Below, in pieces: positions 27,216-56,394 of a stretch of 56,491 bases of DNA (positions are counted from its first letter, which is position 1; each line of letters opens with the position of its first letter). The translations under genes were made by a program, and so were the position numbers. The notes under the pieces are model-generated. The model was not told where the DNA came from, did no database searches, and saw nothing but the letters and a program-made list of their open reading frames with translations. The stretch lies in NCBI GenBank assembly GCA_018240435.1, contig JAFEFT010000023.1, forward strand, positions 1-56,491, read 5' to 3'. The stretch is from Pseudomonadota bacterium (GTDB lineage: Bacteria; Pseudomonadota; Gammaproteobacteria; Xanthomonadales; Xanthomonadaceae).

Positions 27216-27218
27216 GCC

Positions 27219-29836: not shown

Positions 29837-29838
29837 CC

Positions 29839-30624: not shown

Positions 30625-30640
30625 ACGCACAGATCCTCCC

Positions 30641-30868
30641 ATGTGGTACCTGGTCGTCATCGTCGTGGCGGCGCTGGTCTCGGCGGCGCTGGCGCCCAAG
30701 CCGCCCGCCCCGAAACCCGCCGAACTCTCCGACCTCGACGCGCCCACGGCCGAGGAGGGCCGACCGATCCCGGTCGTCTTCGGCGCAGTGCTGCTGCGCG
30801 GGGCGAACGTCGTGTGGTACGGCGACCTGGAGGCCGAACCGATCAAGAAGAAGGGCGGCAAGAAATGA
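30641..30868 (+). CDS. Small tail-tip protein with N-terminal hydrophobic helix
   Basis: A 75-aa protein beginning MWYLVVIVVAALVSAALAPKPPAPKP, a hydrophobic helix then a proline linker, followed by GRPIPVVFGAVLLRGANVVWYGD, resembling the first strands of tip-attachment proteins, and a Lys-rich tail. It may be an assembly or anchoring partner of the J-like protein downstream. Confidence 0.6.
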   Translation: MWYLVVIVVAALVSAALAPKPPAPKPAELSDLDAPTAEEGRPIPVVFGAVLLRGANVVWYGDLEAEPIKKKGGKK

Positions 30869-31074
30869 GCACCGACATCCTCGTCACCATCGCCCACGTG
30901 CGCGCCGCGGGGCTGTGCGTGCATGGCACGCGCACCTGGTTCGCGCGCCAAGGCCTGGACTTCCGCGCCTTCCTCGCCCGGGGGCTGCCCGCCTCGAGCT
31001 TGCTCGCCACCGGCGACGCGATGGCGCAGCGCGTGGTCGAGGTCGCGCAGGCCTGCCATGAGGAGCCGCGCTGA
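30865..31074 (+). CDS. Small tail-region protein, unknown
   Basis: A 69-aa protein (MSTDILVTIAHVRAAGLCVHG, WFARQGLDFRAFLARGLPASSLLATGD). The RQGLDFRAFLARGLP pattern recurs in small phage proteins beside tip genes. It overlaps both neighbours by 1-4 bp. No catalytic motif; role unknown. Confidence 0.6.
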   Translation: MSTDILVTIAHVRAAGLCVHGTRTWFARQGLDFRAFLARGLPASSLLATGDAMAQRVVEVAQACHEEPR

Positions 31075-33347
31075 TGGGCGGTAGCCGCAAGAAGCAGACC
31101 GTCGGCTACCGCTACCGGATCGGCATGCACCTGGTGCTGTGCCAGGGGCCGGTGGATGCAGTGCAGGAGATCCAGATCGGCGATCGCACCGCCTGGGGCG
31201 ATGCCAGCCGCGCGCCGCTGGCGATCGGCCATGGGCTGGGGCGGCTCTCGATCCACAAGCCCACGCTCTTCGGCGGCGACGAACGCGAAGGCGGCGTGGT
31301 GGGTGAGGTGGATGTGCTCAGCGGCGATGCGACGCAAGGCCGCAACGACTACCTGATGAGCCGCCTGGGAGCGGCCATCCCGGCGTTTCGCGGGGTGCTG
31401 TCGCTCGTGGCGCGCAAGATCCTGTTCGCCGCGAACAACCCCTACCTCAAGCCCTGGGCGGTGCGGGTGCGGCGCTTCACGGCGGGCTGGCACGACGAAC
31501 CCTGGATGCCCTGGAACGCCGAGGTGCGGACCTGGGATGCCGACACCGGCACCTCTCTCACCGTCGGCATGAACCCGGCCCACATCCTGGTGCAGTGCCT
31601 CACCGACCCGCACTGGGGGATGGGCTATCCGCCATCCACCCTCGGCGCAAGCTTCTGGAACGCGGCCTGGGCGCTCGAAGCCGAAGGCTTCGGCCTGAAC
31701 CTCCTCTGGACGCGCCAGCAGCCGATCGAGGCCTTCATCGGCCAGGTGCTCGACCACGTCGGCGGCATCCTCTACCTCGACCCAGAGCAGGGCACCTTCG
31801 AGCTCAAGCTCCTGCGCGACGATTACTGGATCGAGGGCCTGCCGCTTCTGGGCCCCGACGAGATCGTGCGCGTGGAGCGCTTCGAGCGCGCGCAGTGGGG
31901 GGAACTGCCCAACGAGATCACCGTGGTCTACACCGACTGGGCGACGGCCAAGGAGTCCACCGTCACGGTGGAGAACCTCGCCGCGATCCAACTGCAAGGC
32001 GGGGTGATCAACCAGCGGCGCGACTATCCGGGCGTGAACTTTGGTCCGCTGGCCGCGCGGCTGGCGCTGCGCGACCTGCGCGCACTCGGCTCGCCCCTGG
32101 CGCGCATGACCTTGACCCTCGCCCCCGGCGCCCTGGAGCGTCCGCCCCTGCCGGGGGACGTGTTCCTGCTGCATTGGCCACGCCTGGGCATCGAGCGCAT
32201 GGTGGTGCGCGTCACCGGCATCGACACCGGCACGCTGGGCGCCACCGAATGGCGCATCGAGGCCGTGGAGGACGTCTTCGGCATGGGCCAGACCGTGCTC
32301 ACGCCCACCCCGCCGCGCCTCGAGGAGCCGCCGCTGGAGGCGCTGCCGCCGACCCTGGTTCTGGCGGTCGAGGTGCCGTACTGGGAACTCGCGCGGCGCC
32401 TGAGCCGGGCCGACCTCGCCACCCTCACCGACACCGACACCTACGTCGGGGCCCTGGCCTGTGCGGGCGGCACGGGGCAGTTGAACTGGCAGCTCGCCAC
32501 CGGGCCCACGAGCGCCGATCTCGAGGCGGTGGCCCCGGAAGACTACGCACCCCTGCTCACGCTCGGCCAGGCGCTGCCGGCCACCGAAGCCGATGCCGTG
32601 GCCGTACCGGTGACGGCGCTGGCCCAGCCCGAGCGCCTGGCGGTCGGCGACTACGCCTACCTGGTCGATGCGGCCGGCGCCCCGCGCGAAGCGGTGGCGA
32701 TCCTCGCCTTCGATGCCACCGCGGGCACGGTGGATCTCGCCCGCGGGGTGCTCGACACCACGCCGCAGGCCCACGCGGCCGGCACCCGGCTGGTGGGCGT
32801 AGGCGAGTGGCTGGCAACAGAGACCGTCGAGCGCGCGCCGGGCGAGTCGGTCTTCGTCGCCGCCGTTCCGCGCACGACCGGCGCCGAAGGTGCGGCCGTG
32901 CTCGCCGTCAACGGCGCGCCCCTCGTGCTCGCCGGCCGCCAGGCGCGGCCGTACCCACCGGGGCGAGTGCGGCTCAACGGCCAGCGCGAGCCGGCCGTGG
33001 TCGCCGGCGACATCACCATCACCTGGGCGCACCGCGACCGCACCCTGCAGACCGCCTACCTCGTGCGGCAGGACGAGGGCGACATCGGCCCCGAACCCGG
33101 AACCGCCTACACCGTGCGCATCAGAGACCGCGACGGCGCGCTGGTGCGCACCGAGGCCGGCCTCACCGGCCACGCCTGGACCTGGGACGTGACCAGCGCC
33201 GCCCTGGACGCCGGCGTCGCGGGCGATCGCGTCACCGTCGAGATCGAGGCCGAACGGGAGGGGCTTTCGAGCTGGCAGGCGCAGGTGCGCACGGTCGATC
33301 GTGCCGGCTACGGTCTGCGCTGGGGGCAGTACTGGGGTGGCGTGTGA
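31074..33347 (+). CDS. Tip attachment protein J-like (host specificity)
   Basis: A 757-aa protein starting MGGSRKKQTVGYRYRIGMHLVLCQGPVDAV, the standard opening of J-like/GTA-type tail tip proteins, with later LRDDYWIEGLPLLGPDEIVRVERF and LPNEITVVYTDW (beta-barrel hub). The C-terminal 250 residues are fibronectin-like. It ends the tail and determines host contact. Confidence 0.85.
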   Translation: MGGSRKKQTVGYRYRIGMHLVLCQGPVDAVQEIQIGDRTAWGDASRAPLAIGHGLGRLSIHKPTLFGGDEREGGVVGEVDVLSGDATQGRNDYLMSRLGAAIPAFRGVLSLVARKILFAANNPYLKPWAVRVRRFTAGWHDEPWMPWNAEVRTWDADTGTSLTVGMNPAHILVQCLTDPHWGMGYPPSTLGASFWNAAWALEAEGFGLNLLWTRQQPIEAFIGQVLDHVGGILYLDPEQGTFELKLLRDDYWIEGLPLLGPDEIVRVERFERAQWGELPNEITVVYTDWATAKESTVTVENLAAIQLQGGVINQRRDYPGVNFGPLAARLALRDLRALGSPLARMTLTLAPGALERPPLPGDVFLLHWPRLGIERMVVRVTGIDTGTLGATEWRIEAVEDVFGMGQTVLTPTPPRLEEPPLEALPPTLVLAVEVPYWELARRLSRADLATLTDTDTYVGALACAGGTGQLNWQLATGPTSADLEAVAPEDYAPLLTLGQALPATEADAVAVPVTALAQPERLAVGDYAYLVDAAGAPREAVAILAFDATAGTVDLARGVLDTTPQAHAAGTRLVGVGEWLATETVERAPGESVFVAAVPRTTGAEGAAVLAVNGAPLVLAGRQARPYPPGRVRLNGQREPAVVAGDITITWAHRDRTLQTAYLVRQDEGDIGPEPGTAYTVRIRDRDGALVRTEAGLTGHAWTWDVTSAALDAGVAGDRVTVEIEAEREGLSSWQAQVRTVDRAGYGLRWGQYWGGV

Positions 33348-33937
33348 TGGAACCCAGGATCGACGTGCACCTGCTCACCCTCGACGAGCCCGGGCACTGG
33401 CGCGAGGAATGCCTCGCGAGCCTCGCCGGCGCGCCGATCCGCCTGCATCTGCTGCCAGGCATCCCGGGGCGTGTGGGGCAGGCCCGCGCGGCAGGCTTCG
33501 CGCGAGGGGCCTTGCCGCTCGTGTCCTTCGTCGATCCCGACGACCGCTATGAGGCTGCGGCCTTCGCGGCCCTGGCCGATGCGCTCGATGCCTGTCCCTC
33601 CGCGGTGCTCGCCTACACCGACGAGGCACTGATCGACGAGCACGGCCGAGTCATCGGCGTGCGGCGACTGGCCTACAGCGCCTTCCAACACGCCCATTCG
33701 GCCAGCCACGTCCACGGCCTGATCGTGATGCGCCGCAGCGCCGTCGAGCTGGTGCTTCCCCGCATCGCCGATCTCGACGCCGGCACCGACTGGCTGCTCA
33801 CCCGCCTCGTGGCCCGGCAGGGCAGCGTGTTGCACCTGCCCCTCGTCGGCCGCCACTGGCGGCAGCACCCGAACCAGCACCACCGCCGCGCGCGCAGCAC
33901 GGCTTTGGGGTCACTGCCGAGTCTTGCGATACCGTGA
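33347..33937 (+). CDS. Glycosyltransferase-like (GT-A) protein
   Basis: A 196-aa protein: PRIDVHLLTLDEP, then GRVGQARAAGFARGALPLVSFVDPDDRYEAAAF with the DPDD metal motif of GT2-type enzymes, and LAYTDEALIDEHG. Shorter than cellular GT2 enzymes. It overlaps the J-like gene by 1 bp, so it is made with the tail tip. It may modify host surface sugars or act as a sugar-binding fold; activity is unproven. Confidence 0.65.
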   Translation: MEPRIDVHLLTLDEPGHWREECLASLAGAPIRLHLLPGIPGRVGQARAAGFARGALPLVSFVDPDDRYEAAAFAALADALDACPSAVLAYTDEALIDEHGRVIGVRRLAYSAFQHAHSASHVHGLIVMRRSAVELVLPRIADLDAGTDWLLTRLVARQGSVLHLPLVGRHWRQHPNQHHRRARSTALGSLPSLAIP

Positions 33938-33949
33938 GGAGATGAACTG

Positions 33950-34300
33950 ATGCCATTGACCGATCCGAACCTGGGCCTCGTCTACGGCTGGACGCTGGGC
34001 GAGTCCGGCTGGCACACCGAGATGGACGCGAACCTGAAGCGCCTGGGCGCCATCGTGGGCCTGTCGGTGACGAGCCGCACTACGGCCGCGCCGCCCGCCA
34101 GCCCCACCGAGGGCGATCGCTACATCGTGCCGGCTGGTGCCACCGGCGCCTGGGCCGGCAGGACCGACCAGATTGCAGTGTGGGTCAATGGTGCCTGGGA
34201 GTACCACGCCCCGAAGGTCGGCTGGCTGGCCTTTATTGCCGCCGAGGACAGGCTCGCCGTCTACAAATCCTCTGGCTGGAGCGCCGGCGTTCCCGTCTGA
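33950..34300 (+). CDS. DUF2793-type tail protein
   Basis: A 116-aa protein (PASPTEGDRYIVPAGATGAWAG, IAVWVNGAWEYHAPKVGWLAF), the DUF2793 pattern of phage and GTA fibre or carbohydrate-binding domains. It starts at ATG 33950 after GAGGAGAT and is followed by a terminator hairpin, closing the tail operon. Confidence 0.75.
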   Translation: MPLTDPNLGLVYGWTLGESGWHTEMDANLKRLGAIVGLSVTSRTTAAPPASPTEGDRYIVPAGATGAWAGRTDQIAVWVNGAWEYHAPKVGWLAFIAAEDRLAVYKSSGWSAGVPV

Positions 34301-34324
34301 CCCCGCACCCCGTCCGTCACCCCC

Positions 34325-34356
34325 GAACCCGCCCGCGTGGCGGGTTCGTCGTTTTT
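34325..34356 (+). terminator. Intrinsic terminator after the tail operon
   Basis: GAACCCGCC (34325-34333) pairs with GGCGGGTTC (34339-34347) over CGCGT, followed by GTCGTTTTT. It shares the AACCCGCC core and TCGTTT tail with the hairpin at 20528. Confidence 0.75.
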
Positions 34357-34367
34357 GGAGACCGCCC

Positions 34368-34670
34368 ATGACTGAACCGACCCAAGCCCCCGCCCTCGTC
34401 GAGAACATGCTGCTCCTGCGCCGCGAGGACTTCGAAGACCTGCTCGACCGTGCCGCCGAGCGCGGAGCCGAGCGGGTGCTCGCGCACCTCGGCCTCGAGA
34501 ACGGCCACGCCGCCCGCGACCTCCGCGAGCTGCGCGATCTGCTGGAAGCGTGGCGCGACGCGCGCCGCACCGCGTGGCAGACCACCATCAAGTTGCTGAC
34601 GACCGCCATCCTCGCCGCACTGCTGGTCGGGGCCGCCATCAAGCTGAAGCTGATGGGAGGTGGCCAATGA
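34368..34670 (+). CDS. Small membrane protein of the lysis cassette (DUF6127-like)
   Basis: A 100-aa protein: an acidic helical N-terminus (LLLRREDFEDLLDRAAERGAERV), then one membrane helix near the C-terminus (LLTTAILAALLVGAAIKLKL). TTGGAGA precedes ATG 34368. It overlaps the holin-like gene by 4 bp, so it is probably a holin, antiholin or regulatory membrane partner. The family name is from memory. Confidence 0.55.
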   Translation: MTEPTQAPALVENMLLLRREDFEDLLDRAAERGAERVLAHLGLENGHAARDLRELRDLLEAWRDARRTAWQTTIKLLTTAILAALLVGAAIKLKLMGGGQ

Positions 34671-35143
34671 TCGAGACCCTGCTCGGCGGCCTCCTCGGCG
34701 GGGCCTTCCGTCTCGCGCCGGAGATCCTCAAGTGGCTGGACCGCAAGGGCGAGCGCAGTCACGAACTCGCCATGCAGGACAAGGCGCTGGAGTTCGAGAA
34801 GCTGCGCGGCGCCCAGCGCATGGCCGAGATCGGCGCGAGTGCAGATGCCGCGTGGAACACCGGGGCCATCGAGGCCTTGCGCGAAGCGGTCGCGGCGCAG
34901 GGGCGGCCCTCGGGCGTGAAGTGGGCCGATGCGCTGTCCAGCAGCGTCCGTCCGGTGATCACCTACTGGTTCATGGCGCTGTACTGCGCGGCCAAGACTG
35001 CCGCCTTCGTGGGTGCCATCGAGGCCGGGGCGGACTGGATCCCCGCCATCCAGGCGGCCTGGACCGAGGCCGACCAGGCCCTGTGGGCCGGGGTGCTGAA
35101 CTTCTGGTTCCTCGGCCGCGTGTTCGACCGGGTGCGGCCGTGA
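34667..35143 (+). CDS. Putative holin
   Basis: A 158-aa protein (MIETLLGGLLGGAFRLAPEILKW, RSHELAMQDKALEFEKLR). Hydrophobic segments at about 5-20, 95-120 (PVITYWFMALYCAAKTAAFVG) and 135-150 suit a phage holin of the T7-superfamily/DUF3154-like kind, which makes the inner-membrane hole for the lysozyme encoded next. The 4-bp overlap with the lysozyme supports a lysis cassette. Confidence 0.65.
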   Translation: MIETLLGGLLGGAFRLAPEILKWLDRKGERSHELAMQDKALEFEKLRGAQRMAEIGASADAAWNTGAIEALREAVAAQGRPSGVKWADALSSSVRPVITYWFMALYCAAKTAAFVGAIEAGADWIPAIQAAWTEADQALWAGVLNFWFLGRVFDRVRP

Positions 35144-35595
35144 TTGCGGTACCCCAAGCGGCCATCGAGCTGGCCAAACGCTTTGAGGGCTTCCACCGCG
35201 TGCCCAAGCACGATCCCAACCGCGCCTATCCGTACATCTGTCCGGCCGGCTATCCGACGATCGGCTATGGTCACCTCTGCGATCCGAAGCACCCGCCGAT
35301 CACCGAAGCAGAGGCCGAGGCCTACCTCGCCCAGGATCTGAAGGTGGCGCTCGCCGCCACGCTGCGCTACTGCCCTGTGCTGGCGACCGAGCCGGAAGGG
35401 CGGCTCGCCGCCATCGTCGACTTCACCTTCAACCTCGGCGCCGGGCGGCTGCAGACCTCGACGCTGCGGCGGCGGGTCAATCAGCGGGACTGGCCCGCAG
35501 TTGCAATGGAACTACGTCGATGGGTCTACGGCGGCGGTAAGATGCTCCCAGGGCTCGTAGCACGTCGTGATCTCGAGGCTCGATTGGTTCAGTGA
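35140..35595 (+). CDS. Endolysin, GH24 lysozyme
   Basis: A 151-aa lysozyme: ELAKRFEGFHRVP (catalytic Glu16) and ICPAGYPTIGYGHLCDP (the T-I-G-Y-G-H signature) of the T4-type GH24 family, with FTFNLGAGRLQTSTLRRRVNQ and RRWVYGGGKMLPGLVARRDLE in the C-terminal lobe. No signal peptide, so it relies on the holin. GTG 35140 overlaps the holin stop. It is the last rightward phage gene. Confidence 0.92.
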   Translation: MIAVPQAAIELAKRFEGFHRVPKHDPNRAYPYICPAGYPTIGYGHLCDPKHPPITEAEAEAYLAQDLKVALAATLRYCPVLATEPEGRLAAIVDFTFNLGAGRLQTSTLRRRVNQRDWPAVAMELRRWVYGGGKMLPGLVARRDLEARLVQ

Positions 35596-35644
35596 GTGTT
35601 GACCTCCGAACTCCTTGAGGCAGATGCGCTTGCAAACGACGAAG

Positions 35645-37774
35645 TCAGCGAAGCCAAGCGGGAAGCTGAACAGGGGCCGAGGCTGCGAAGCGTTCCTGGA
35701 TGGTGAAGAAGAGCTTCCCGGCCCTTTCCAGCACGGGATCGGGAAGCACGACGCCCCGCTGCGACCACGACGAAACCAGTTGAAGAGCGACCGTGGTCTT
35801 CCAGCCATCGGGCAAGTCGATGCCCTTCTCTTTAGCGGAAGCCTTGATTCGATCGGGAAGACTGCGGGACCTACCGTCGTCTTCTGGCAGGCGAAGCGGC
35901 TCTGACAAGAGAGGATTGAGGACTGGTAGGATGACGTCCTCTCCAAGGATGTCTTCAATCTCGACGGTAGCTCCTGGCTGTTGTAAGGCCTCGTCGAGCA
36001 TGACGATGTTGCTGTCTTTCCCGAGATACAACTCCTTGAGAAGTGCATCGCGCCTGACTCGACCAGCCTCGTCGGAATCGAGAAGGATCAGGGGCCGAAC
36101 GTCCTGCCCGAGGAACAAGGCCGCTATGTGACCGACGAGCTTAGTCCCGCCGCACGGCGTGATGTAGATGTCCTCCGAAAGCACGGGAAGACCCTTCGCA
36201 CGGCACTGCTGGTTAAGTGCGTGAAGGTAGTAGTAATCGCTCATGCCCTCGACGAGCACATTCTTCTTGTGCTGGAAGAGGCCGCGCAACATGGCGTAGC
36301 CAGCGGCGGCTTGCAGCGGAAAGATGGTCTCGCGGTCTCTGGGCCATGTATCGGCACTGATCCGCGAGTGGCCCGTGTTGTCCTCCGTGACAGGGCGGAC
36401 GCGATAGATGTGCTCGCCGTCCACGAGGAACGGCGAGTGGGTCGTATATACGAGCTGGTTCTTCTCGGCCAGGCGCTCGAAGAAGACCAGAAGCTCCTGC
36501 TGAGCCGTTGGATGTAGGTTCATCCCCGGCTCGTCGAGAAGAAGGATTGCGTCCTTGTGCCCCTCTTCGGACTCTACGAGGAACACCAGGTAGAAGGAGA
36601 AGAACCACTGGAAGCCCTTGCTTCGGGCTTCCAGCTCGATTTCCACATCCGGCCTTCGGTCGTCAGCGACCCAGATTCGGAAATAGTCGCCGTCAGCGTG
36701 ATAGCGTATCTTGTGCCGGCGCTGCGACCACCAGTCAGAGAACCGGGTGCTTATGTCGTTCGACGCAGAGTTGAGGCGGATCGCGCGCTCCTCTTTTCGC
36801 CGTTGATCCTTGGCAACGGTCTCGGCGTTTGGCTGTTGGCCGTTCTGACGTTGCGCCCTAGCTTCTTCCGCACCTAGGTCAGCTATGTCCTTCGCGTCGA
36901 GCGCGACATGCTTGAACATCGCATTGATCGTGCGTACGCGAGGATTGTTTCGATCACGTTGAAGGTCTTCGAGGAACCGCGGCAGATAAATCGCACTGTC
37001 AAGGACACCGTAGTTCTCGAAGTAGATCAGAACGGGAAGCGCGTCTTCGATCAAGCTGTCGAGCTTGGGCAGGACTGGTCCTTCCTTGGCTGCTTCGAGA
37101 ATCGGATCAACTGCCTCGTGGAGCGCTTCGATAAGATCGGCGGTCTGTGGGCTGCTCTTGGTCTCTGCCTCAGCCTTTAGCTTGGCGAGCGTCTTGGCCC
37201 CGGCGTCACCGCGAAGGTCTGCGGAACCCTTGAGCTTGTCCTGCCACTGAGTCGCCCACTGTGCGAGCGCGTTCCTTGTCTCGGCAGTTGCCTCTTCCTG
37301 CTCGGGCGTTGGTGCTCGGAGGCGACGCGCGCCGCTGGCAAAAGCCTTCAGTCCAGCAAGTATGGGCTCTGGCGAAAGGGGTTGCTCGGCGATATCAGGT
37401 TCGTATTCGAACGTGATGGAGCCGTCGTAGTAGCGCGTCGCAATCACTTCGGTTGGCGGGATCTGATCGGGTGGCAGCAGATCCGCCATATCTGCTTTCA
37501 GTGCATCGTCAACCGCAAAGGCGACGGAGCAGACAGGCCAGTCACTACCCTTCGAGCCACCGCCGACGAAATCCCGCATGTAGCGGTCGCGCGGAAACTC
37601 GCGCATTGGGTCGTATGGCTCCGGGGACGCCGGATTGAACTTGTGCAAGGCCTTTAGGAGCGCGGTCTTTCCAGATTCGTTACGCCCAACAAATGCCGTC
37701 ACTTGGTCAAGCAAGATCCAACCACTGTCATCGATGTTTCTGAAGTTCTGGATTCTGAACCGCTTAGCCTTCAT
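35645..37774 (-). CDS. OLD-family ATP-dependent nuclease
   Basis: A 709-aa ATPase-Toprim nuclease. Walker A is GRNESGKTALLKAL (30-43), the ABC-type LLLDEPGMNLHP lies near 410, and a C-terminal Toprim domain shows VLVEGMSDYYYL (near 506) and LILLDSDEAG (near 563). OLD nucleases (P2 Old, Gabija GajA relatives) degrade or nick phage DNA. It reads against the phage late genes, from 50 bp after the lysozyme, with lower GC than the phage, so it belongs to the island. It lies 64 bp beyond the DUF499 gene and may be co-transcribed. No UvrD-type partner is seen, so it is not a complete Gabija. Confidence 0.85.
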   Translation of the reverse strand: MKAKRFRIQNFRNIDDSGWILLDQVTAFVGRNESGKTALLKALHKFNPASPEPYDPMREFPRDRYMRDFVGGGSKGSDWPVCSVAFAVDDALKADMADLLPPDQIPPTEVIATRYYDGSITFEYEPDIAEQPLSPEPILAGLKAFASGARRLRAPTPEQEEATAETRNALAQWATQWQDKLKGSADLRGDAGAKTLAKLKAEAETKSSPQTADLIEALHEAVDPILEAAKEGPVLPKLDSLIEDALPVLIYFENYGVLDSAIYLPRFLEDLQRDRNNPRVRTINAMFKHVALDAKDIADLGAEEARAQRQNGQQPNAETVAKDQRRKEERAIRLNSASNDISTRFSDWWSQRRHKIRYHADGDYFRIWVADDRRPDVEIELEARSKGFQWFFSFYLVFLVESEEGHKDAILLLDEPGMNLHPTAQQELLVFFERLAEKNQLVYTTHSPFLVDGEHIYRVRPVTEDNTGHSRISADTWPRDRETIFPLQAAAGYAMLRGLFQHKKNVLVEGMSDYYYLHALNQQCRAKGLPVLSEDIYITPCGGTKLVGHIAALFLGQDVRPLILLDSDEAGRVRRDALLKELYLGKDSNIVMLDEALQQPGATVEIEDILGEDVILPVLNPLLSEPLRLPEDDGRSRSLPDRIKASAKEKGIDLPDGWKTTVALQLVSSWSQRGVVLPDPVLERAGKLFFTIQERFAASAPVQLPAWLR

Positions 37775-37838
37775 GGCATTTCCCCTTGCTTGTCTGATCC
37801 TGTCGGTGGCCTTTGGATGATCCCCGCGGTCGGCCTCG

Positions 37839-40706
37839 CTACTCGCCCACCTCGAACTCCGCGTTCTTGAACTTGAGCACGTTGCAGTTCTCCTTCACCA
37901 CGCGCTGCAGGCCGTCATCGAATCCGGAGGGAGACTCGGCCTGGATCTCGATGGCGATCTTCACCTTGACGCCGGGGCGCATGGTGAACTGCTGAACGAC
38001 CTCGTCGACCAGATCGGCGAACTGCTTCTTCGCCAGGAACGGGTCGAGCTCGATGCTGCCGTAGAACTGCTTCTTGACGATCTGGCCGGCGGTCGCGCCA
38101 CCGGCTTGGTAGCCCCCTTTGGCCGAGTCTTCGACGTGCGAGGTTTCGCCGCCGCCAGCCGGAGCCGTTGCGGTGCTTGCGCCCGTTCCGGCTTCAGCGG
38201 TCTTGGCACGCGAGGCCTCTTCAGACGCGCGCAGGGCTTCCATGTACGCGGCGGCCGTCAGCGGCTCGATCAGCAGCAGCGACGAATCCATGATGAGCGA
38301 CGTGCGCTTGCTGTAGCTGAAGCCGATGTAGCGACCATCTTCCTTGCCCTGCGCGAAGCCGAAGAACTCACGGCTCTCGGCGCCCGCTGCCATCGTGTTC
38401 TGGAACACGGTGTCGTCTTTCAGGCGGGGCAGGTAGAGCTGCTGGCAGCTCTGCTGCCAGACGGTAAGCGCCGGAACGTCCTTGACGTCATCCTTCCAGA
38501 ACCAGTCCTTCAGCACCTTGGCCAGGTGGATCGGCGCCCACTCGGTGATGAGCAGCTCGTTCTCCTTGAGGACGCGTTCGATCTCCTGCGACCAGTTCTG
38601 CGCGCCCGGGTTGAGCGGAAAGTGCTCCCACATCACCTCAGACAGCCCTTTGCCCGGCCGCGCCTCTTGCACCGGGGCCAGCAGCCACTTATAGGTCTCA
38701 CGAATCATCCGCCGCACAGTCTCCTCGGCCTGCTCCAGGCTGGCTTGCGCCTGCTTGGCCATCAGGTTGTCGAGGACGATGCGGTTGTCTTTGTAGTCGC
38801 CGACGATGCTGCGCCATGCCAGGAACGAGCGCACGTGGTCCTTCAGGCGGCTGACGCTGTCGTAGTCCGCTGCCACGAAGATCAGGCGATTCTGCTTGAA
38901 GCGGGGCTGGTCACCACGCTTCTTCAGGATCTCGGTGGCGCGCTCCACTGCCAGGCTCTGGCCGCTTTTACTGAAGGCCGCATCTGGCGGCAGCACCACC
39001 AGCCGCAATGCCCAGTCGTCCGGCACGTCGCCGCTGCCGGTGAAGATGTGGATGCCGCCGAAGACGCCGCTGGCAAAGCTGCGCTGCACGCGCTCTCGGA
39101 TCGTGGGGAACACGTCCTCCTTGTCCTGGAAGCGGCGCTTGCGCTCTTCCATCTCGCGCCGCAGGTTCGGGCGCGTGTCCAGCCAGAAGCGGTTGTTGGC
39201 GTGGTTCAGGTAGTGCAGCCGGTCGGAGAGGCGCCTCAGCGCATCCTTGTAAAGATTGACCTGCTGGCCGGGCTGGGCGACACCCAGCAGCACGCGCTCC
39301 AGCTCCAACCCCCGCACCAGCTGGTTGGACGCGATCTGGACGGAATGCGGAGCGCTGCCCAGGAAGATCGCGCGGGCAGTGCGGCGGCAGGCCTGCACAC
39401 TACCGAAACGGGTGTCCTTGTTTTCGATCTCCCAGGTTTCGGAGCGCTCGCCATCCACGTCGCGCTCGATCACCGGGTCCCAGCCCTGCGGCAGGTAGTA
39501 GATGGCCTCGTTGCGCGTGTCGGCATCCATCAGCGGGATGCTGCCGGGCATGATCAACGGGTCGTTGTTGCCGTCCTTCCACAGGCGATGGATAACCTTG
39601 GCCATCAGCTTCAGCACGCCGCGGGTGCGCTGGAAGTTGTCCAGCGTGGACCAGTCCTCGTACAGGCGGTCGAACACCTCGGGGTGGATGGGATAGGCGT
39701 GGACCAGGCGCTCGAAGTACTTGCTGTCCTGCGTCTCCTGGGGAAAGTCCTCGCGGTTGGCGATGTAGTAGTCCGCGAACGCGCGGCAGACCGACTCCAT
39801 CGCCAGCTTGTCGTTGATGTTGGTAAAAAGGCGGCGGCGGACGATCTCGAACGCTTCCTCGGTGGCCACCGGCTTCCACAGTGCCTGCACGCGGCCGAAG
39901 TAGTGTTCGAGCGCACGCAGGGCCTTCACGCCTTGCTGGCTGCCGGCCTCGCGATCCGAGAACGGCAGCGAGGCGAGCAGCACCGCAGTCGGCACCGCCT
40001 TCAGGGCCTCGGTGAGTGCCTGCACGAAGGAGAGTTGGGTGTCGTAAGTGCCGCCCGAGAGCGTCTTACCCTCCTCGAACTGCGACACGTAGCGCACCAG
40101 CTCGTCCATCAGGATCACGCACGGAGCGCTGGCCGCCAGCATGTCCGCGAGCTCCTTCTTGCCCGGAGCGGTGCCGGTCAGGTCCGCTTCTTTCACGAAC
40201 TCGTAGCTGGCCTCGCCGCCCAGCTGCCAGGCCAGTTCACCCCAGAGCGTACGCACTGTGCAGCCGTCATGGATGCGCGGCTTGCTGGCCAGGCTCAGCA
40301 GATCCACGCCGTCGAGCACAGCGATACGGGCCTTGGGCAACTCCGTCACGCCGGCTGCATCCAGAATCGGGGGCACGCCCTGAAGCTCGCTCGCCGGCGC
40401 CGCCCCCTTGGCGAGGTGGTAGACCGCCAGCATCGTGTGCGTCTTACCGCCGCCGAATGCGGTCTGAAGCTGGATGACCGGATCGCCGCCTTTGCCGGCC
40501 AGGCGCTTGACCACCGAGTCCAGCAGCAGGCGCATGCCCTCGGTAATGAAGGTGCGCTGGAAGAACAGCACCGGGTTCTGGTACTCCTCGTTGGCCGTAC
40601 GCGCATGCACCCGCGACAGGTCCGCCGCGAACTCGGCCTGCTGGAACTTGCCCTCCCGCACATCGGAATGCGGCTCTGCGATCTCGCGCCAGGGTTTCAG
40701 TGTCAT
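37839..40706 (-). CDS. DUF499 ATPase of the defence locus
   Basis: A 955-aa ATPase. Walker A is [11 protein letters not shown] (83-93) and Walker [13 protein letters not shown] (196-207), typical of DUF499 proteins. A low-complexity linker (about 835-885, Ala/Thr/Gly) separates a C-terminal domain ([23 protein letters not shown]). ATG 40706 (MTLKPWRE) is chosen for its GGGGA site; an upstream TTG at 40718 abuts the methyltransferase stop. DUF499 and DUF1156 genes are commonly paired in helicase-methylase-ATPase loci; the ATPase may couple recognition to helicase or nuclease action. Confidence 0.87.
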
Positions 40707-40718
40707 GATCTTCCCCAA

Positions 40719-43604
<2,886 letters not shown>

Positions 43605-44657
43605 TCAGTCGTCCTTCTCCCAGCCGGCCTTGCCATCGCAATGGCTACAACCGGCCCAGAAACTGTGTTCCATGTCGCCAGTGTTGAATTCGTTGCACCA
43701 CTGACACTGTTCAATGTGGTCCGAGATGTCGAAGCAGCTCGCACAGAAATAGTGATCGCCCCGCCTGACCACGGTGTGGTAGCCCTCGCATGCACCGCAG
43801 TTGGCAGGCTCCCAGCCGTCGTCACCATCCTTGATGCCGATGTGCGCGGCGACGTGATCCGTCAGCGCATCCACCAGATGCTCAGGTTCGATACCTTCCT
43901 CGCAGTGCTCGCAAGTCGAGTAGCCCACGTTCGCAATGACGATGGGTTCGCCGCAGTGCGGGCACTCGAGTTCGACCTGGATTTCGGTGTGATCACACAC
44001 CAGGCAGCGCAGCGATGCGATCTGGTCGTCGAGGTTGTTCGGCACGGCCGCCTTGAACCCGCAGGCACTGCACGCTTTCGGCGTATTGCCTGCCTTGCGC
44101 GCAACCTCCAGTTCGGTCTTGAGCGCCTTGAACTTGGCGCTCAAGTACTTCCGGTGCCCCTTCATCGCACGATCAGCGCGTGCGATCTCGCCGCCGAAGT
44201 CGTGGAAGTATCGGTCCCATCGGATCAACAGGCGATGCAGATGGAACCACGAGCGGCAATGCTCGGCGACGATCTGTTCCTTCGCCTTCTCATCGCTGTC
44301 CATCTCGGGGTGGAAGAAGTGAACCAGCTTGTTGCGATGGTTCGCCAGCGCACGAAAGCTGCCGTAGGCGTCGTCGCTGATGTCTTCGCCTGCAATATCA
44401 CGAATTCGTGCTCGGATCTCTTCCAGGGTGACCGAGATGAAGTCCCCGGCCATGAACTTGGCCAGGTTGGCCTGTTCCGGCCTGGAAACGATCAGCGACC
44501 AATGCTCCTTCATCAGCCGCGCTTTGAGCAGCATCTCCACCGCGGCGCAGAAATGGATGACAGAGTACTTGGGCGCCTTGTCGAATTCCTCGATGCCGCG
44601 CTCCAGGAAGTCGAAGGCATTGCGGGTCAGTGAATCAAAGATGTGGTGGTGGGTCAT
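43605..44657 (-). CDS. HEPN-like protein with C-terminal zinc ribbons
   Basis: A 350-aa protein. The helical N-terminus contains ANHRNKLVHFFH, giving the R-x4-H motif (R108, H113) characteristic of HEPN ribonucleases. From about residue 195 there are many CxxC pairs (CSACG, CLVCD, CPHCG, CEHCEE, CGACEG, CASCF, CQWCN, CSHCDG), forming several zinc ribbons. HEPN domains often act as RNases in abortive infection and toxin-antitoxin systems. It sits between the NYN gene (9 bp) and the methyltransferase (0 bp), so it is in the same operon. Function inferred from the motif. Confidence 0.7.
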   Translation of the reverse strand: MTHHHIFDSLTRNAFDFLERGIEEFDKAPKYSVIHFCAAVEMLLKARLMKEHWSLIVSRPEQANLAKFMAGDFISVTLEEIRARIRDIAGEDISDDAYGSFRALANHRNKLVHFFHPEMDSDEKAKEQIVAEHCRSWFHLHRLLIRWDRYFHDFGGEIARADRAMKGHRKYLSAKFKALKTELEVARKAGNTPKACSACGFKAAVPNNLDDQIASLRCLVCDHTEIQVELECPHCGEPIVIANVGYSTCEHCEEGIEPEHLVDALTDHVAAHIGIKDGDDGWEPANCGACEGYHTVVRRGDHYFCASCFDISDHIEQCQWCNEFNTGDMEHSFWAGCSHCDGKAGWEKDD

Positions 44658-44666
44658 GACATTCCC

Positions 44667-45287
44667 TTATCGCCAATGCACCGGGCGATTGATCACGTAC
44701 CCGCTGGCCGTGGTTACTGCTGCAGGCAATTGGTTCTGTCGTACCTTGGTTTCGCTGATGGTGAAAGCTGCTGTTGCAGCAGTGGCAAGCTGCACGGAAT
44801 TACGCCCCGGAGGTTGGGCCACGATGACGCGCTTGGCCGGGAACCGGGCGCGCACTTGCTGTACCGGCGTGGTCAGATCGCTGTCGGCCGAAATCAGCAG
44901 TGCGGTGTCGAAACGGTCATCGAAGGCGTCGGCGAGTAGCTGGACCGCGATGTTGACGTCGGTCATCTTCTCTTCGTAGTCGGTCCACGTGTTGCCGCAG
45001 CGCCGACATTGGCGGCCCTTGGGCAGGTAGTGGCCGAATTGGATCGTCAGCAGTGGTGAGGTGGCCAGCGCATCCAGATAATCAGCCTGCCGCTGCATGT
45101 CGGCGTGGTTGTTGCCCGTCAGGCTGATGCGCGCCGTGAAGTAGTGAGCCGCCTGCAGCGTTTGCCCCGGTTTGAGCAGGGAGCGTGACAAGCCCACCAC
45201 ATCGAGCCAATAGTGGCGCTTCCACCCCTTGCTCTTGAGGCCGAAGTAGAGGTTGAATCCATCGATGTAGGCGATTACGCGCGACAT
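44667..45287 (-). CDS. NYN-domain (PIN-like) nuclease
   Basis: A 206-aa protein. It has the NYN signature IAYIDGFNLYFGLKS (Asp9), a mid-protein EKMTDVNIAVQLLADAF and ALLISADSDLTTPVQQV, the acidic residues that bind metal in this PIN-like fold. A CRRCGNTW motif just before EKMTD may bind zinc. NYN proteins cut RNA or act in RNA decay. It is the first gene after the tandem hairpins and the start of a tight four-gene run. Confidence 0.87.
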   Translation of the reverse strand: MSRVIAYIDGFNLYFGLKSKGWKRHYWLDVVGLSRSLLKPGQTLQAAHYFTARISLTGNNHADMQRQADYLDALATSPLLTIQFGHYLPKGRQCRRCGNTWTDYEEKMTDVNIAVQLLADAFDDRFDTALLISADSDLTTPVQQVRARFPAKRVIVAQPPGRNSVQLATAATAAFTISETKVRQNQLPAAVTTASGYVINRPVHWR

Positions 45288-45367
45288 CGCTCGCCCCCTG
45301 CAAAACGCGGGTCACGGTGCGGTGTCTTGACAGCGCAGGCCCGCGTCGCCATAATTGCCCCACTTAA

Positions 45368-45487
45368 CCCCGCTGTCGAGAGCATCGACAGCCCGACGCC
45401 CTCCCCGTGAGGGCGTTTCTCTTTGTGCCCCGCCGCAGATAGCATCTGCGGCCCGACGCCCTCCCCGTGAGGGCGTCTCTGTTTCTG
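45368..45487. repeat. Two 60-bp tandem structured repeats
   Basis: The 60-bp unit occurs twice with exact 60-bp register. Each unit has hairpin 1 (45372-45392; 45432-45452) and hairpin 2 (ACGCCCTC/GAGGGCGT at 45396-45416; 45456-45476). Hairpin 2 is identical. Hairpin 1 differs at three base pairs, all compensated (T74-A90 to C134-G150, T76-A88 to C136-G148, C77-G87 to A137-T147; numbers are the last digits of 45374 etc.). Each unit ends TTCTCTTT or CTCTGTTT on the plus strand. Such covariation points to selected RNA or DNA structure. Confidence 0.8.
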
Positions 45488-45501
45488 GGCGCAGCCCAGG
45501 C

Positions 45502-49032
<3,531 letters not shown>

Positions 49033-49061
49033 GGTGCGCCCCCTTGTTATTGCTTCCCGCC

Positions 49062-49268
49062 TCAGGGCTTGCGCCTGTTGTAGGGCGACTGGTTGGTAGG
49101 CTTGAGGGAGATGTTGTTCTCGCCCGCCTTTGCACGCACCGCGTCCTCCGTGCGGCCCAGCTTCAGGCCGATAACCCGGGTGGGCGTGTTCTCTTGGGCG
49201 AGCTGCTTGAGCTGCTTGACCTCGGCAGGCGTCCATTGCTTGCCGTGGTTGGCGGGAGGCTTAGCCAT
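49062..49268 (-). CDS. Small SANT/Myb-like DNA-binding protein
   Basis: A 68-aa protein ([42 protein letters not shown]). The W-T-x-x-E-x-x-x-L opening and L-G-R-T-x-x-A-V helix are a SANT/Myb-like fold. It is 30 bp before the helicase start, after AGGAGCC at its own start, so it is a likely operon member and possibly a DNA-binding subunit or regulator. Confidence 0.7.
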
Positions 49269-49334
49269 GATGGGGCTCCTTTCGGCGGTGACGGTCGACG
49301 GGATTGCAGGTGGGGGTGATCGTCATGGTCACCC

Positions 49335-50225
49335 CTACTTGCTGGACTCGCTATAGCCCGGCGCGAGCACCAAGTTGGTGACGCCATAGAGGGCCTGGCG
49401 ATTGCGCAGCCACAGGTGGTACTCGCCACCCTTGAGGCTGTGATCTTCGGTGCAGTCCACGTTCCAGCGGCGCAACAGGTAGCCGGCCATCGCCGCACGG
49501 GCCCGCACCTTGAGCACGCCGCCCTCCATGCCGTACTCGGCCTCGATGGTGTCGGGGTGCTGCACGTTGGCCGGATGCGGCACGAGCTCGAGCTCGGTGA
49601 TCCGGTTCCACTGGATGTCCTGATCGGGCTTCTCGTGGTCGGCCACAGGGCCGGGCAGGATGCGGGCGGCGTCGAGGCGGCCCAACACGAAGTCGCGGAA
49701 CTCACCGCTGCGCCGGTCGAAGGCGCGGACGTGCCAACGAAGGCCGCTGTCGGCCAGTGCGAACGGGACGATCTCCCGGGTCGTCAGCCCGCTCGACAGT
49801 GCGCGATAGGCGACCTCAACAGCGGCGCCTTGGTGAATGGCGCGGGTCAGGACGGACAGCAGATCCAGATCAATCTTGCCCGGCAGGCTGGTGCCCTCCT
49901 GTGCCACGACACCCTTCCAGCGGATGGGCTCGCCGTCACCGTAGCCCTGGGACAACCAAGTGAGGATCCGCTCGGCGGGGAAGTCAAACAGGGGGCGGAA
50001 CCAAGCGGCACGGACGTAGACCTTGCCCTTGGTGTCGTACTCCATATTGCCTGGGGCCAGCTCCTTGTACTGGGCGATGTCCCGCGTGGCCGCCGCAGCC
50101 TGGATGCCGAAGCGCGTCACCAAGTCCTGGCGGCGGATCTCGCCAACAAACCGCAGGCGCAACTCGACGAACGCGAGCCGGTCGCGTTGCGCCTGGGTCA
50201 TCTCCGGGAGTCGGTCGCTGGACAT
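49335..50225 (-). CDS. WYL-domain transcriptional regulator
   Basis: A 296-aa protein. N-terminal winged helix (RDRLAFVELRLRFVGEIRRQDLVTRFG ... ATRDIAQY) and a central WYL-type sheet (AVEVAYRALSSGLTTREIVPFALADSGLRWHVRAFDRRSGEFRDFVLGRL) followed by a C-terminal extension. It resembles BrxR/CapW-type regulators of defence loci, which repress until a ligand or phage signal is sensed. It is the first gene of the minus-strand locus and is preceded by a near-consensus promoter overlapped by a short inverted repeat. Confidence 0.85.
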   Translation of the reverse strand: MSSDRLPEMTQAQRDRLAFVELRLRFVGEIRRQDLVTRFGIQAAAATRDIAQYKELAPGNMEYDTKGKVYVRAAWFRPLFDFPAERILTWLSQGYGDGEPIRWKGVVAQEGTSLPGKIDLDLLSVLTRAIHQGAAVEVAYRALSSGLTTREIVPFALADSGLRWHVRAFDRRSGEFRDFVLGRLDAARILPGPVADHEKPDQDIQWNRITELELVPHPANVQHPDTIEAEYGMEGGVLKVRARAAMAGYLLRRWNVDCTEDHSLKGGEYHLWLRNRQALYGVTNLVLAPGYSESSK

Positions 50226-53686: not shown

Positions 53687-54958
53687 CTAGCCGTTCACGA
53701 TGGGCCGGACATCCCAAGTGATGGACATCCCGGGCCGGTAGGCCACCTCGTTACTGATCTTGATCGCGTCTTTGAGGTGCTCGGCCAGCGGCTTGTCGTA
53801 CTTCTCGATCTGCTTGATGGCACGGTCGACTGCGTTGCGGAAGGCGTCCCGGACGTTCTTGCGCTTGTCCCCGGCCTTGCGTTGTCGCCCGCCGATGCCT
53901 TTACCGCCTTCCATCGCTTTGGTCAGGAAGGCCATTTCCTCCTCGATCTCATCAACGCGGGCGTGGTCACCGGCATCGCGCGCCTCATCAATCTCGCCCA
54001 ACAGCTCGCGGGCGCGCTGTTGCCATTCACGGAGGGCTTGCCTGTCTGCGACGTCTCCGGCATCGCCCAGAGGGATTCCTTGGGTCACCTGGAAGCCGTC
54101 CTCGACGTCCTCCGGTGCCACCCCGGTGTTGGCCGGTAGGTCAATGGCGTTGGCAGCGCTTCCAACGGCGATTTCATAGATCGATGTCTCGCGATCTGGA
54201 AACGCCAACAAGAGGTTGATGTACTCCGCGCCCTTGTCTACGTTGAGCAGACAGATGGTGTTGCGGCCCTGGAATCGCGTCTCCCAGACCGCGCCGCGCT
54301 TGCGGAAGAAGTTCTCCGGGTGTTTTTCTGCCGAGACCACGGCGGGCATCGAGATCACGGAGCTCGCCTGATACGCCGTTTGAATCAGGCAGTCTCCGGG
54401 GAGCGTCCGCTCCCGGATCGCAGTGCGATGGCGGCTGAGCAACTCATCCAACGCCCCCATCACCTCGTCGGCATGGCGTTTATAGAGATCGAACACTCGC
54501 TGCGCGGCCTGCCCGGCGCTGTTGTAGTTCAAGAACTTGAACACTCGGCCCACGTCTGGGTAGCTGCTGACGAATTGCGCGACGTCTGTCAGTCCCTTCA
54601 CCTGATTGGCGCGTTCCAGATAGGCCGCCGCCATGATCTTGTCCACGTTCTTCTTCTGGTCTTGGGCATCGCGGCTCTGGGTGAACACGTCGAACTTGTA
54701 GTGTTCCACCGGATCGTGTTGATCAGCTTTTGCCGCGAGCACCGCGAAACGCCTGTCGATGCACTGCGAGCAGCCGCCGCAGTGTGTGTGCAGGTTCGTC
54801 ATCTCCCACGTGTGCGTGCAGGTCATCGAATGTTTGATCAGGTCGTGACAACCGGCATCCGTGATGACCTTGACAACGTCAGCCTTGGTTTTCCAGATAT
54901 ACGGGTTTTCGACCGTGAAAGGCTCGCCCGCCACCAGCGAGATGATGTCCTGATACCC
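53687..54958 (-). pseudogene. QueC-like protein, N-terminally truncated
   Basis: From about 54958 the frame reads ISLVAGEPFTVENPYIWKTKADVVKVI, then TCTHTWEMTNLHTHCGGCSQC, the four-cysteine zinc site of QueC (7-cyano-7-deazaguanine synthase) enzymes, followed by a long C-terminal extension of about 300 residues. QueC relatives with extensions occur in Qat and type IV CBASS defence systems. The N-terminal PP-loop (SGGxDS) half is missing: sequence upstream of the junction belongs to the DUF262 gene in another frame. Without the ATP-binding half it cannot be a normal QueC. Confidence 0.8.
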
Positions 54959-56394
54959 GGCACCTTCAGCCCATTGAACGCCATCTCGACGTGCTGGGTC
55001 AGTCGCGCGAGCAAGTAGCGTGTGCGGTACTGCTGCATCGAATGCAGAGTAAAGCGCTTGAGGGCGTCGGCCAGTTCCTGCGACTTGCCCGCCATGTTCT
55101 TTTCGAAGCGGTCGGCGACGAAGGCGTTGAGCTGCACCTTCTGCTTCACCGGATCGCTGGCCTCGGCGATTGCACGCAGCTCGTCGGCCCATTGCGAGAA
55201 GCTGCGTTCCAGATCCTTGGTCGGCGTCTTGGTGAAGATGTAGTAGAGGAGGAAGCTCTCCAGCTGCCCGACGAAGTGGTCGAACAACGGCTTTGGAAAG
55301 TTCGCCGCCGCCAGCAGCAAGACGTAGTGCAAGCTGAACGCGCCACCGGCCAGCCGCTTGAGACTGTCCATCGCCAGACTAGTCTTGCCGTCATTGCCCA
55401 GCCCGTTGGCAAAGGCCAGGTAGTGCTCGACGTTGCGGATCACCTTGCGAACGAACTCGAAGGGCTTGCCTTCGTAATCGCACAGCGCCGCGTTGCCCTT
55501 GGCGATGAACCAGTCGTAGATCTCGTCCTCGCGTACCACCGCGTCGCCGCGCTCGTTCTTGATCACGTAGTTGGCCATCAAGAAGTAGCGCAGGAAGCGC
55601 AGTGGCTTTTCCTTCTCCTTTTCCAGCGGCTTGGTGATCTTCTTCCACTCGTCCTTGAGCTGGGTGAACTGCGTTTGCTTGACCTGCGTGAACAGCAGGT
55701 TCTTGAGCAAGTCCATCGGGTTCAAGCCCACGCCGCGCTCATTGATGGTCTCGAAAATCTTCAGCGCGCTGCTGACGTCGGTGGAGATCTGGATGAACAC
55801 CACGTTGTTGGCCAGATAGCCCCAATACTTCTTCAGCTTGGCCGTGTCGTCGTAGTTGTCCTTCAGGTACCGATACAGCGTGCTGTAGGCATTGACCAGA
55901 TTCTCCAGCGAGCCAAAGCTCGTGATGCCAGCAGCCTGGATGCCTGCGCGCACGGCCATAGGTTCGGCGTCCAGCTCCACGAGCTTAGCCATCACTTCGC
56001 CCGCGCTCTCGTAACGCGGCTCCAGCTTCAGTGTGGTGCGCACCTCGCCGTCGCTGTCCACATAGCTGGTCGAGATCAGCCCGGCGATCATCTGCCGCTG
56101 CGGTTCACCCTGGAACAGATGCTTGAGCGCGCACAGCAGCAGGAAGAAGGTGGTCAGGCGCTGCTGGCCGTCGATGACCTCGTAGTGGTTCTTCTGATCG
56201 GTCGGTGACACCAGCACGGTGCCGATGAAATATTCTCGCGTGGTGCCCGCGTCGATTTGTTCGCCGATGTCCTCAAGCAGCTGATGCACCTCCTTGTCCG
56301 TCCAGACGTACTCGCGTTGGTAGTCGGGAACGATGTAGAAGCACTCCCTGAATGCTTCCTCGATGCTGTATTTGTGGTTTTCGATGCGGGCCAT
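54955..56394 (-). pseudogene. DUF262 protein lacking its C-terminal domain
   Basis: The frame from ATG 56394 gives a good DUF262 protein (GmrS-like): PDYQREYVW, YEVIDGQQRLTTF (72-84), FETINERGVGLNPMDLLKNLL. It is intact to about residue 480 (LARLTQHVEMAFNGLKVPG), where relatives continue into a DUF1524 HNH nuclease domain. Instead it runs into the QueC-like DNA in the wrong frame and ends after about 38 unrelated residues at 54838. It is thus fused by deletion, and nuclease function is probably lost. Confidence 0.85.

Follow-up and report, generated by a model that had tools for sequence, protein, structure and literature searches.

A predicted small RNA gene beside a NYN ribonuclease gene in the cargo slot of an Hma restriction locus

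The locus and its proteins

A stretch of 56,491 nt from a Xanthomonadaceae bacterium (assembly GCA_018240435.1, contig JAFEFT010000023.1; hereafter the window) carries on its minus strand an Hma restriction locus, in which the genes of two predicted ribonucleases (RNases), one of the NYN and one of the HEPN type, lie between the helicase gene HmaA and the methylase gene HmaB. We describe this locus and, above all, a predicted small non-coding RNA (ncRNA) gene in the 214-nt gap between HmaA and the NYN gene, a gap that had gone unremarked in the first-pass annotation of the window. Proteins were compared with PADLOC and Pfam profiles, and the best 80 of 446 HmaB relatives from a genome scan were examined together with their surroundings, some of the contigs being too short to show every gene. 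The seven genes of the locus are the following:

49335..50225, minus strand: WYL-domain regulator (Pfam WYL, 1.4e-10; a WYL protein is present in 11 of the 80 HmaB-relative loci)
49062..49268, minus strand: small protein of 68 aa called SANT-like (an open reading frame, ORF, only, the label serving as a name; present in 6 of the 80 relatives)
45502..49032, minus strand: HmaA, SNF2 helicase with a C-terminal NOV_C/DUF3883 domain of PD-(D/E)XK type (GTG start at 49032; PADLOC 2167 bits; NOV_C 3.3e-21)
44667..45287, minus strand: predicted NYN RNase, HEC-09 (PADLOC HEC-09 313 bits, 203 of 203 positions; Pfam NYN 6.7e-10)
43605..44657, minus strand: HEPN (DUF3644-like) protein with conserved Cys pairs (HEPN-Zn), HEC-08 (PADLOC 340 bits, positions 14-357 of 358)
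40719..43604, minus strand: HmaB, DUF1156 DNA methylase (PADLOC HmaB 1814 bits; Pfam DUF1156)
37839..40718, minus strand: HmaC, DUF499 ATPase (PADLOC HmaC 1536 bits; Pfam DUF499)

These coordinates agree with the order and the single strand given by the first-pass annotation, as well as with its near-zero spacing of the last four genes (9, 0 and 0 nt between NYN, HEPN-Zn, HmaB and HmaC), and the PADLOC matches, nearly full length for HmaA, HmaB, HmaC, HEC-09 and HEC-08, bear out both its Hma-type helicase, methylase and ATPase, found here together on one strand, and its two RNase-like genes in one operon. The match of the HEPN protein to Pfam DUF3644 (0.0025) lies under that family's cut-off; R, N, V and H of its motif RNKLVH (residues 108-113; RNxxVH) are kept in all nine aligned sequences, the window's included, as is the R-x4-6-H pattern of HEPN RNases. 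In the NYN protein the residues D9, D110, D135 and D137, which by the NYN/PIN-like fold would be the acidic active site, are unchanged in 44 of 44 aligned sequences, and a sequence search of the PDB with this protein gave one match, a weak one (2qip, 6.4e-05). A Type-1 BREX-related system calls for an active PD-(D/E)XK domain at the C-terminus of the helicase; the NOV_C domain is a candidate for it, and an E-x-K pattern is found at the end of all 65 HmaA proteins whose end is visible.

The HEC candidates reportedly originate from a 2024 preprint by Payne et al. (10.1101/2024.01.29.577857, as cited in PMC12988326). The abbreviation stands for Hma-embedded candidate (PMC12988326), while the Hma core goes by the name Type-1 BREX-related (BR) system in PMC12839542. 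With the systems described there and in PMC8565338 the window shares the helicase, the DUF1156 methylase, the DUF499 ATPase and the NOV_C end of HmaA, and what sets it apart is its slot, occupied by NYN, HEPN-Zn and the ncRNA. An N-terminal HEPN fusion occurs in many Type-1 BR ATPases, and the window's HmaC, matched by its profile from residue 5, leaves no room for one; HEPN domains fused to DUF499 have been proposed as a last-resort effector (PMC12839542). HmaB is classed as an adenine methylase by PADLOC and PMC12839542 and as m5C type in PMC8565338, and Hma itself is most likely a methylation-marked restriction system (PMC12839542). By its gene content and sequence comparison, we read the window locus as an Hma/Type-1 BREX-related restriction locus whose HmaA-HmaB slot takes interchangeable cargo. 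Because PADLOC names the Hma core, HEC-09 and HEC-08, the protein content is already catalogued, and the first-pass claim that no described type holds this set finds little support; the HEC-08 and HEC-09 models, both matched by the window, cover proteins, whereas no Rfam family matches the ncRNA beside NYN.

A predicted RNA gene in the gap between HmaA and NYN

The 214-nt gap houses two tandem double-hairpin units, which lie on the plus strand and are oriented away from NYN:

45327..45355, plus strand: predicted sigma-70-type promoter, TTGACA-17-CATAAT (11 of 12 consensus positions)
45365..45419, plus strand: ncRNA unit 1, NYN-proximal, a 5' hairpin followed by a terminator hairpin (R1 75.6 bits; covariation)
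45395..45417, plus strand: intrinsic-terminator-like hairpin of unit 1
45425..45479, plus strand: ncRNA unit 2, a tandem copy (R1 77.3 bits)
45455..45477, plus strand: intrinsic-terminator-like hairpin of unit 2

The covariance model R1 was made from 21 copies, three of them at loci without an intact NYN gene (L036, L047, L062). The patterns with which the copies were collected predetermine a large part of hairpin 1. Covariation is therefore tested more freely in hairpin 2, where both-sided changes occur in five of nine pairs. Over the whole structure 38 cells have both sides changed, against 9.8 when shuffled (0 of 500 as high) and 0 to 6 in slid structures; the covariation score reaches 0.320, compared with 0.127 in shuffles. 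The alignment has a conserved structure and invariant stretches, and its wobble pairs favour the plus-strand ncRNA by 39 to 17 (10 to 3 in the phage and other copies described below). The predicted ncRNA of the window thus bears the marks of a transcription unit of its own, namely a promoter, a 5' hairpin, an intrinsic terminator and two tandem units. We also considered that the element might run in the direction of NYN, as a sense-strand leader or an array like ToxI, and dropped this for the window, since promoter, terminator and wobble pairs point to the other strand.

Against Rfam at a relaxed threshold, the window RNA gave chance-level matches only (best 16.7 bits, gathering threshold 58), and the RNA of 6, 16 and 9 further loci gave no match. 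In the bacterium's own 3.18-Mb genome only the two window copies exceed 23 bits with R1 (150 of 5091 first-look candidates scored), and at least 50 bits are reached in 6 of 369 genomes (as a rule 15 candidates per genome scored); as the searches with R1 and with the second model R2 (see below) score limited candidates per genome, absence of the ncRNA elsewhere is not proven by them. A pattern scan of 398 genomes gave a match in 19, mostly chance-like; beyond the window, G605 and G620 show both hairpins by eye.

Association of the RNA with the NYN gene

Among the 80 Hma loci, R1 reaches at least 37 bits in 19, comprising all 16 with a NYN gene, L036 with a NYN remnant, L047 and L062, so that the RNA is present in 16 of 16 NYN-bearing and 3 of 64 other loci (14 of 14 and 3 of 51 when restricted to loci with HmaA and HmaB visible). 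L080 gave one 22-bit match. Wherever both neighbours are visible (17 of the 19 loci) the RNA lies between HmaA and HmaB, and it is absent by R1 from the two HEPN-only loci (L040, L082). At the level of sequence, the ncRNA is co-conserved with NYN and not with HEPN.

NYN genes were also collected by protein alone, 54 of 78 NYN-profile matches being kept (profile start ≤ 3, E ≤ 1e-28, ≥ 150 nt upstream) and L191, L212, L213 and L214 being left out as duplicates of other loci. An HmaA, HmaB or HmaC match lies in the stretch of 17 of them and 37 are without one; L183, L184 and L189 were assigned by annotation, and L014, with a 32% HmaA-like match, was put among the 37. A co-directional terminator within 120 nt upstream was found for 22 of the 54 genes, an opposite-strand terminator within 300 nt upstream for 24, and either type for 44. 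The corresponding co-directional and opposite-strand counts were 13 and 33 of 1080 in dinucleotide shuffles, 16 and 44 of 683 for other ORFs in such loci, and 11 and 20 (either, 30) of 363 for control ORFs preceded by 120 nt or more of intergenic DNA. Since near-copies among the 54 genes inflate locus counts, clusters at 70% identity were counted as well, and 31 of 38 were positive (hand count). A terminator-ended unit lies upstream of 29 of the 37 NYN genes without detected Hma, co-directional in 22 of these. R1-type RNAs also stand beside NYN genes without detected Hma in Streptomyces (L187, 30.7 bits, co-directional) and Microbacterium (L190, 40.6 bits, divergent).

Of the copies adjacent to a NYN gene, 22 of 24 have a promoter score of at least 9, as do all four that stand next to a NYN remnant. 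This score is reached by two of five copies in NYN-less Hma slots and by 1 of the 24 copies in phages or other contexts (L224, a phage). Because the promoter is common beside NYN and rare in the phage and other copies, the NYN-adjacent RNA is likely an independent unit.

The second model, R2, was built on nine co-directional RNAs (class B; covariation 21 cells against 6.9). In the 369 genomes (about 14 candidates per genome scored) it gave nine matches, eight of which precede a NYN match by 12-93 nt and are co-directional with it. The model itself had been built with six of these nine, and the three outside it are two beside NYN (one NYN broken, one cut by the contig end) and one orphan. On a tree of 50 of the 54 NYN proteins, RNA class and orientation need 7 changes against 21.3 when shuffled (0 of 200 as low), and RNA class would appear to follow the NYN tree. 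No NYN-plus-RNA module was met in the titles and abstracts listed first for NYN terms, which is weak evidence of absence, most of the subscription literature and the HEC preprint lying outside the coverage.

Optional cargo of the HmaA-HmaB slot

NYN is found in 16 of the 80 loci, HEPN-Zn in 6 and both in 4, each time in the order NYN-HEPN-HmaB, and internal deletions affect 3 of the 16 NYN genes (L038, L049, L068). The slot is shorter than 300 nt in 15 of the 65 loci with both genes visible, while ten other cargoes that were scanned comprised six PtuA (Septu), one Argonaute-like and three without a match at 1e-10. Compared with the window, L033 and L035 show 97 to 100% identity in the WYL protein, the SANT-like ORF and HmaA, 98% in HmaC, 87 to 89% in HmaB and 62% in NYN, and they have no HEPN; L034 is 97% identical in NYN, 93% in HEPN and 90% in HmaA. 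From such identities, the slot cargo seems to be exchanged as one block. Relatives of HEPN-Zn and NYN outside Hma were found on plasmids, and 32 of 37 NYN-relative stretches, most reaching about 1.5 kb to each side, had no HmaA, HmaB or HmaC match. The two RNases are thus optional and separable, being sparse in relatives, placed in a variable slot and, for NYN, present without detected Hma in most of the stretches compared, and they most likely act independently of Hma.

The first-pass annotation had proposed an undescribed composite system in which DNA recognition triggers RNA cleavage, and had suggested a neighbourhood search for co-occurrence of the seven families. That full set does recur, in 2 of the 80 loci (L039, L044); the RNases are absent from most relatives, largely the outcome that the annotation had named as refuting its proposal, and because they are optional cargo of the slot the composite is for the most part not upheld.

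Three further loci have settings of their own. In L177 (G342) the RNA lies between a putative SNF2-helicase-like ORF and a putative PHP-like protein resembling TrlF. In L113 a stand-alone HEPN-Zn relative, annotated 'hsdR', adjoins an integrase gene on an Enterobacter plasmid. L183 is a 3461-bp Serratia plasmid (3.4-kb class, with same-size E. coli records) on which an HTH protein and a NYN relative are among the genes listed, the latter with no upstream unit by the terminator criterion; this HTH-NYN pair might be a plasmid addiction module.

Interpretation and alternatives

With moderate confidence we favour the reading that a prophage-borne Hma locus has exchangeable cargo in which the ncRNA would hold the NYN RNase inactive in a type III-like manner. 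The ncRNA products would be about 60 nt long, or about 120 nt by read-through, and would bind the NYN protein and keep it inactive as type III RNA antitoxins do; when a phage takes over host transcription the ncRNA would fall, and the freed NYN would cut RNA. Hma would act separately, on unmodified DNA, HEPN would be a further RNase, and phages that carry the RNA could possibly use it as a decoy.

Type III systems (ToxIN, CptIN, TenpIN; PMC5086642) resemble the pair in their small structured RNA, intrinsic terminator and RNase gene, in tandem units (in the Hma loci) and in possible phage mimics. They differ in a MazF/Kid-like fold instead of the NYN domain, and the pair is further set apart by its divergent arrangement in Hma, its double-hairpin units and an inhibition that is here only proposed. 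The criterion once used to find type III systems calls for a Rho-independent terminator that separates RNA and toxin within a single operon, and also for a tandem array (PMC5086642). The order RNA-terminator-RNase is present in 22 class B-like relatives, and tandem repeats amount to two units in the window and one to three in relatives. The toxin candidate of the window is NYN by Pfam, which would set it apart from the ToxN/Kid-like fold, a fold true of the three classic type III families and not of AvcID, a type III deaminase that does not share the RNase likeness. Because class B has the order without the tandem array, and the Hma class is tandem but divergent, we call the RNA-NYN pair type III-like and not a member.

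Several observations weigh against an RNA antitoxin of NYN. In the Hma clade, the window included, the RNA is divergent from NYN and so departs from the RNA-terminator-toxin order of type III (PMC5086642). Of the five R1 covariation measures two are modest, namely pairs with a double change (7 vs. 4.6, 24 of 500 shuffles as high) and further pair types (15 vs. 13.2, 80 of 500 as high). By the terminator criterion 10 of the 54 NYN genes are without a unit, units outside Hma are single with no tandem arrays (class B sequences aligned), class B has weaker promoters (10 of 21 vs. 8% of shuffles), and the 7 changes on the NYN tree depend on labels set partly by the author's reading of upstream regions, near-copies favouring low shuffle counts. 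The RNA also occurs without NYN: in the Hma slots L047, L062, L177, L180 and L182; as the orphan R2 match in G041 (L238), with a long T-run after the terminator hairpin and no NYN match in the 3-kb stretch; and, as R1-type copies, in three genome contexts (L175, L178, L179) and in 21 sequences from phages, namely 20 IMG/VR contigs and the Dolichospermum phage Dfl-JY45. In Dfl-JY45, moreover, both annotated neighbours lie on the strand opposite the RNA, which does not fit the 3' end of a transcript that the RNA mostly looks like in phages.

The 21 phage sequences form 11 clusters by shared DNA, and 20 of their copies are without a promoter. A co-directional stop codon lies within 150 nt before the RNA in 18 of the 24 phage and genome-context copies (mechanically listed ORFs of at least 60 aa). 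No NYN relative was found in these 24 stretches, which for most phages cover only part of the contig, nor among 17 stretches obtained with the NYN query in viral contigs; L228, one of 15 new viral stretches, was without an R1 match. A precedent for the mimicry of an RNA antitoxin by a phage comes from PhiTE, with its copies of ToxI (PMC3475682), and we would guess that the phage copies found here are decoys. The HK022 put antitermination RNA, likewise phage-borne and with two stem-loops (PMC9378689), was considered for comparison and rejected, as bases 26000-40700 of HK022 score at most 9.4 bits with R1.

It is rather improbable, in our view, that the RNA is a cis-acting regulator, i.e., an antisense transcript or an insulator limiting HmaA read-through into the cargo, with no action on the NYN protein. 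Any polycistronic mRNA would indeed be complementary to it between HmaA and NYN, and copies persist in two loci where PtuA occupies the Hma slot (L047, L062). The RNA nevertheless tracks NYN and not HEPN, copies are found in phages, and a comparable unit accompanies 29 of the 37 NYN relatives without detected Hma, where 22 units are not antisense because they are co-directional with NYN. We regard it as unlikely that the RNA instead guides NYN, assists it as a cofactor or serves as its dedicated substrate: the conserved structure, the invariant stretches and the coupling of an RNase gene to one RNA would suit such a role, but the R1 alignment has no variable spacer-like part, and the layout, with its own promoter, its own terminator and an adjoining RNase gene, is that of RNA antitoxins.

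It is very doubtful that the locus is a composite in which Hma, on recognising DNA, activates NYN and HEPN. In its favour are the near-zero gaps, the constant NYN-HEPN-HmaB order in the four relatives with both RNases, and the last-resort role proposed for DUF499-fused HEPN domains (PMC12839542), against which stand the absence of the RNases from most of the 80 relatives, the occurrence of NYN and HEPN relatives without detected Hma and a slot that also takes Septu; where they occur together, the three parts may still cooperate. A mere double-hairpin terminator acquired by chance would suit the stop codons ahead of 18 of the 24 phage and other copies and is nonetheless highly improbable, given a promoter at nearly constant spacing beside NYN and in 1 of 24 copies elsewhere, R1 scores of at least 50 bits in just 6 of 369 genomes, and eight of nine R2 matches beside NYN.

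Beyond the favoured reading of the ncRNA as an inhibitor of the NYN RNase, a wider one, somewhat less likely than not, is that HEC-09-type NYN proteins are the toxins of an undescribed RNA-antitoxin family found in several phyla and on small plasmids, serving as exchangeable Hma cargo, with the antitoxin RNA copied as 3'-end decoys in diverse phages. PADLOC's HEC-09 is a one-protein model, and if an RNA partner is needed, the gene cloned alone would lose its function or be toxic. If the reading is true, the ncRNA would be the missing half of HEC-09, a PIN-like nuclease would join the RNA-antitoxin systems, and a test of phage RNA mimicry would be at hand with natural phage copies that have no RNase in reach.

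Surroundings of the locus and minor observations

One more gene adjoins the locus on its 3' side:

35645..37774, minus strand: OLD-like ATPase with TOPRIM, 3' of HmaC (Pfam AAA_15 and OLD-like_TOPRIM; system membership uncertain)

A counterpart 98% identical to it lies downstream of HmaC in L035. The left part of the window (1-35600) encodes phage functions (Sak4, primase, ParB/methylase, head protease, tape measure, tail, endolysin), and the Hma-OLD block (35645-50225) starts directly after the endolysin. Dyella L035 aligns unbroken over 33947 to 41909, and Arenimonas L033 aligns piecewise on both sides; from this arrangement the Hma island seems to be prophage-borne.

Within HmaB, residues about 450-550 (41950-42255) are hypervariable: two blocks of 50 residues here are 62 and 36% identical to L033, against 76-100% for the remaining blocks of HmaB, and this stretch is probably an exchanged target-recognition part. 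Elsewhere in the same genome, a second, short DUF499-like match occurs at G000:C29:48026-48751 (L002), with a short HmaB-like match adjoining. At 53687-56394 on the minus strand of the window, a DUF262/GmrSD_N ORF overlaps an ORF that has the C-terminal part only of a QueC-like domain, and the two look like a broken or fused gene pair.

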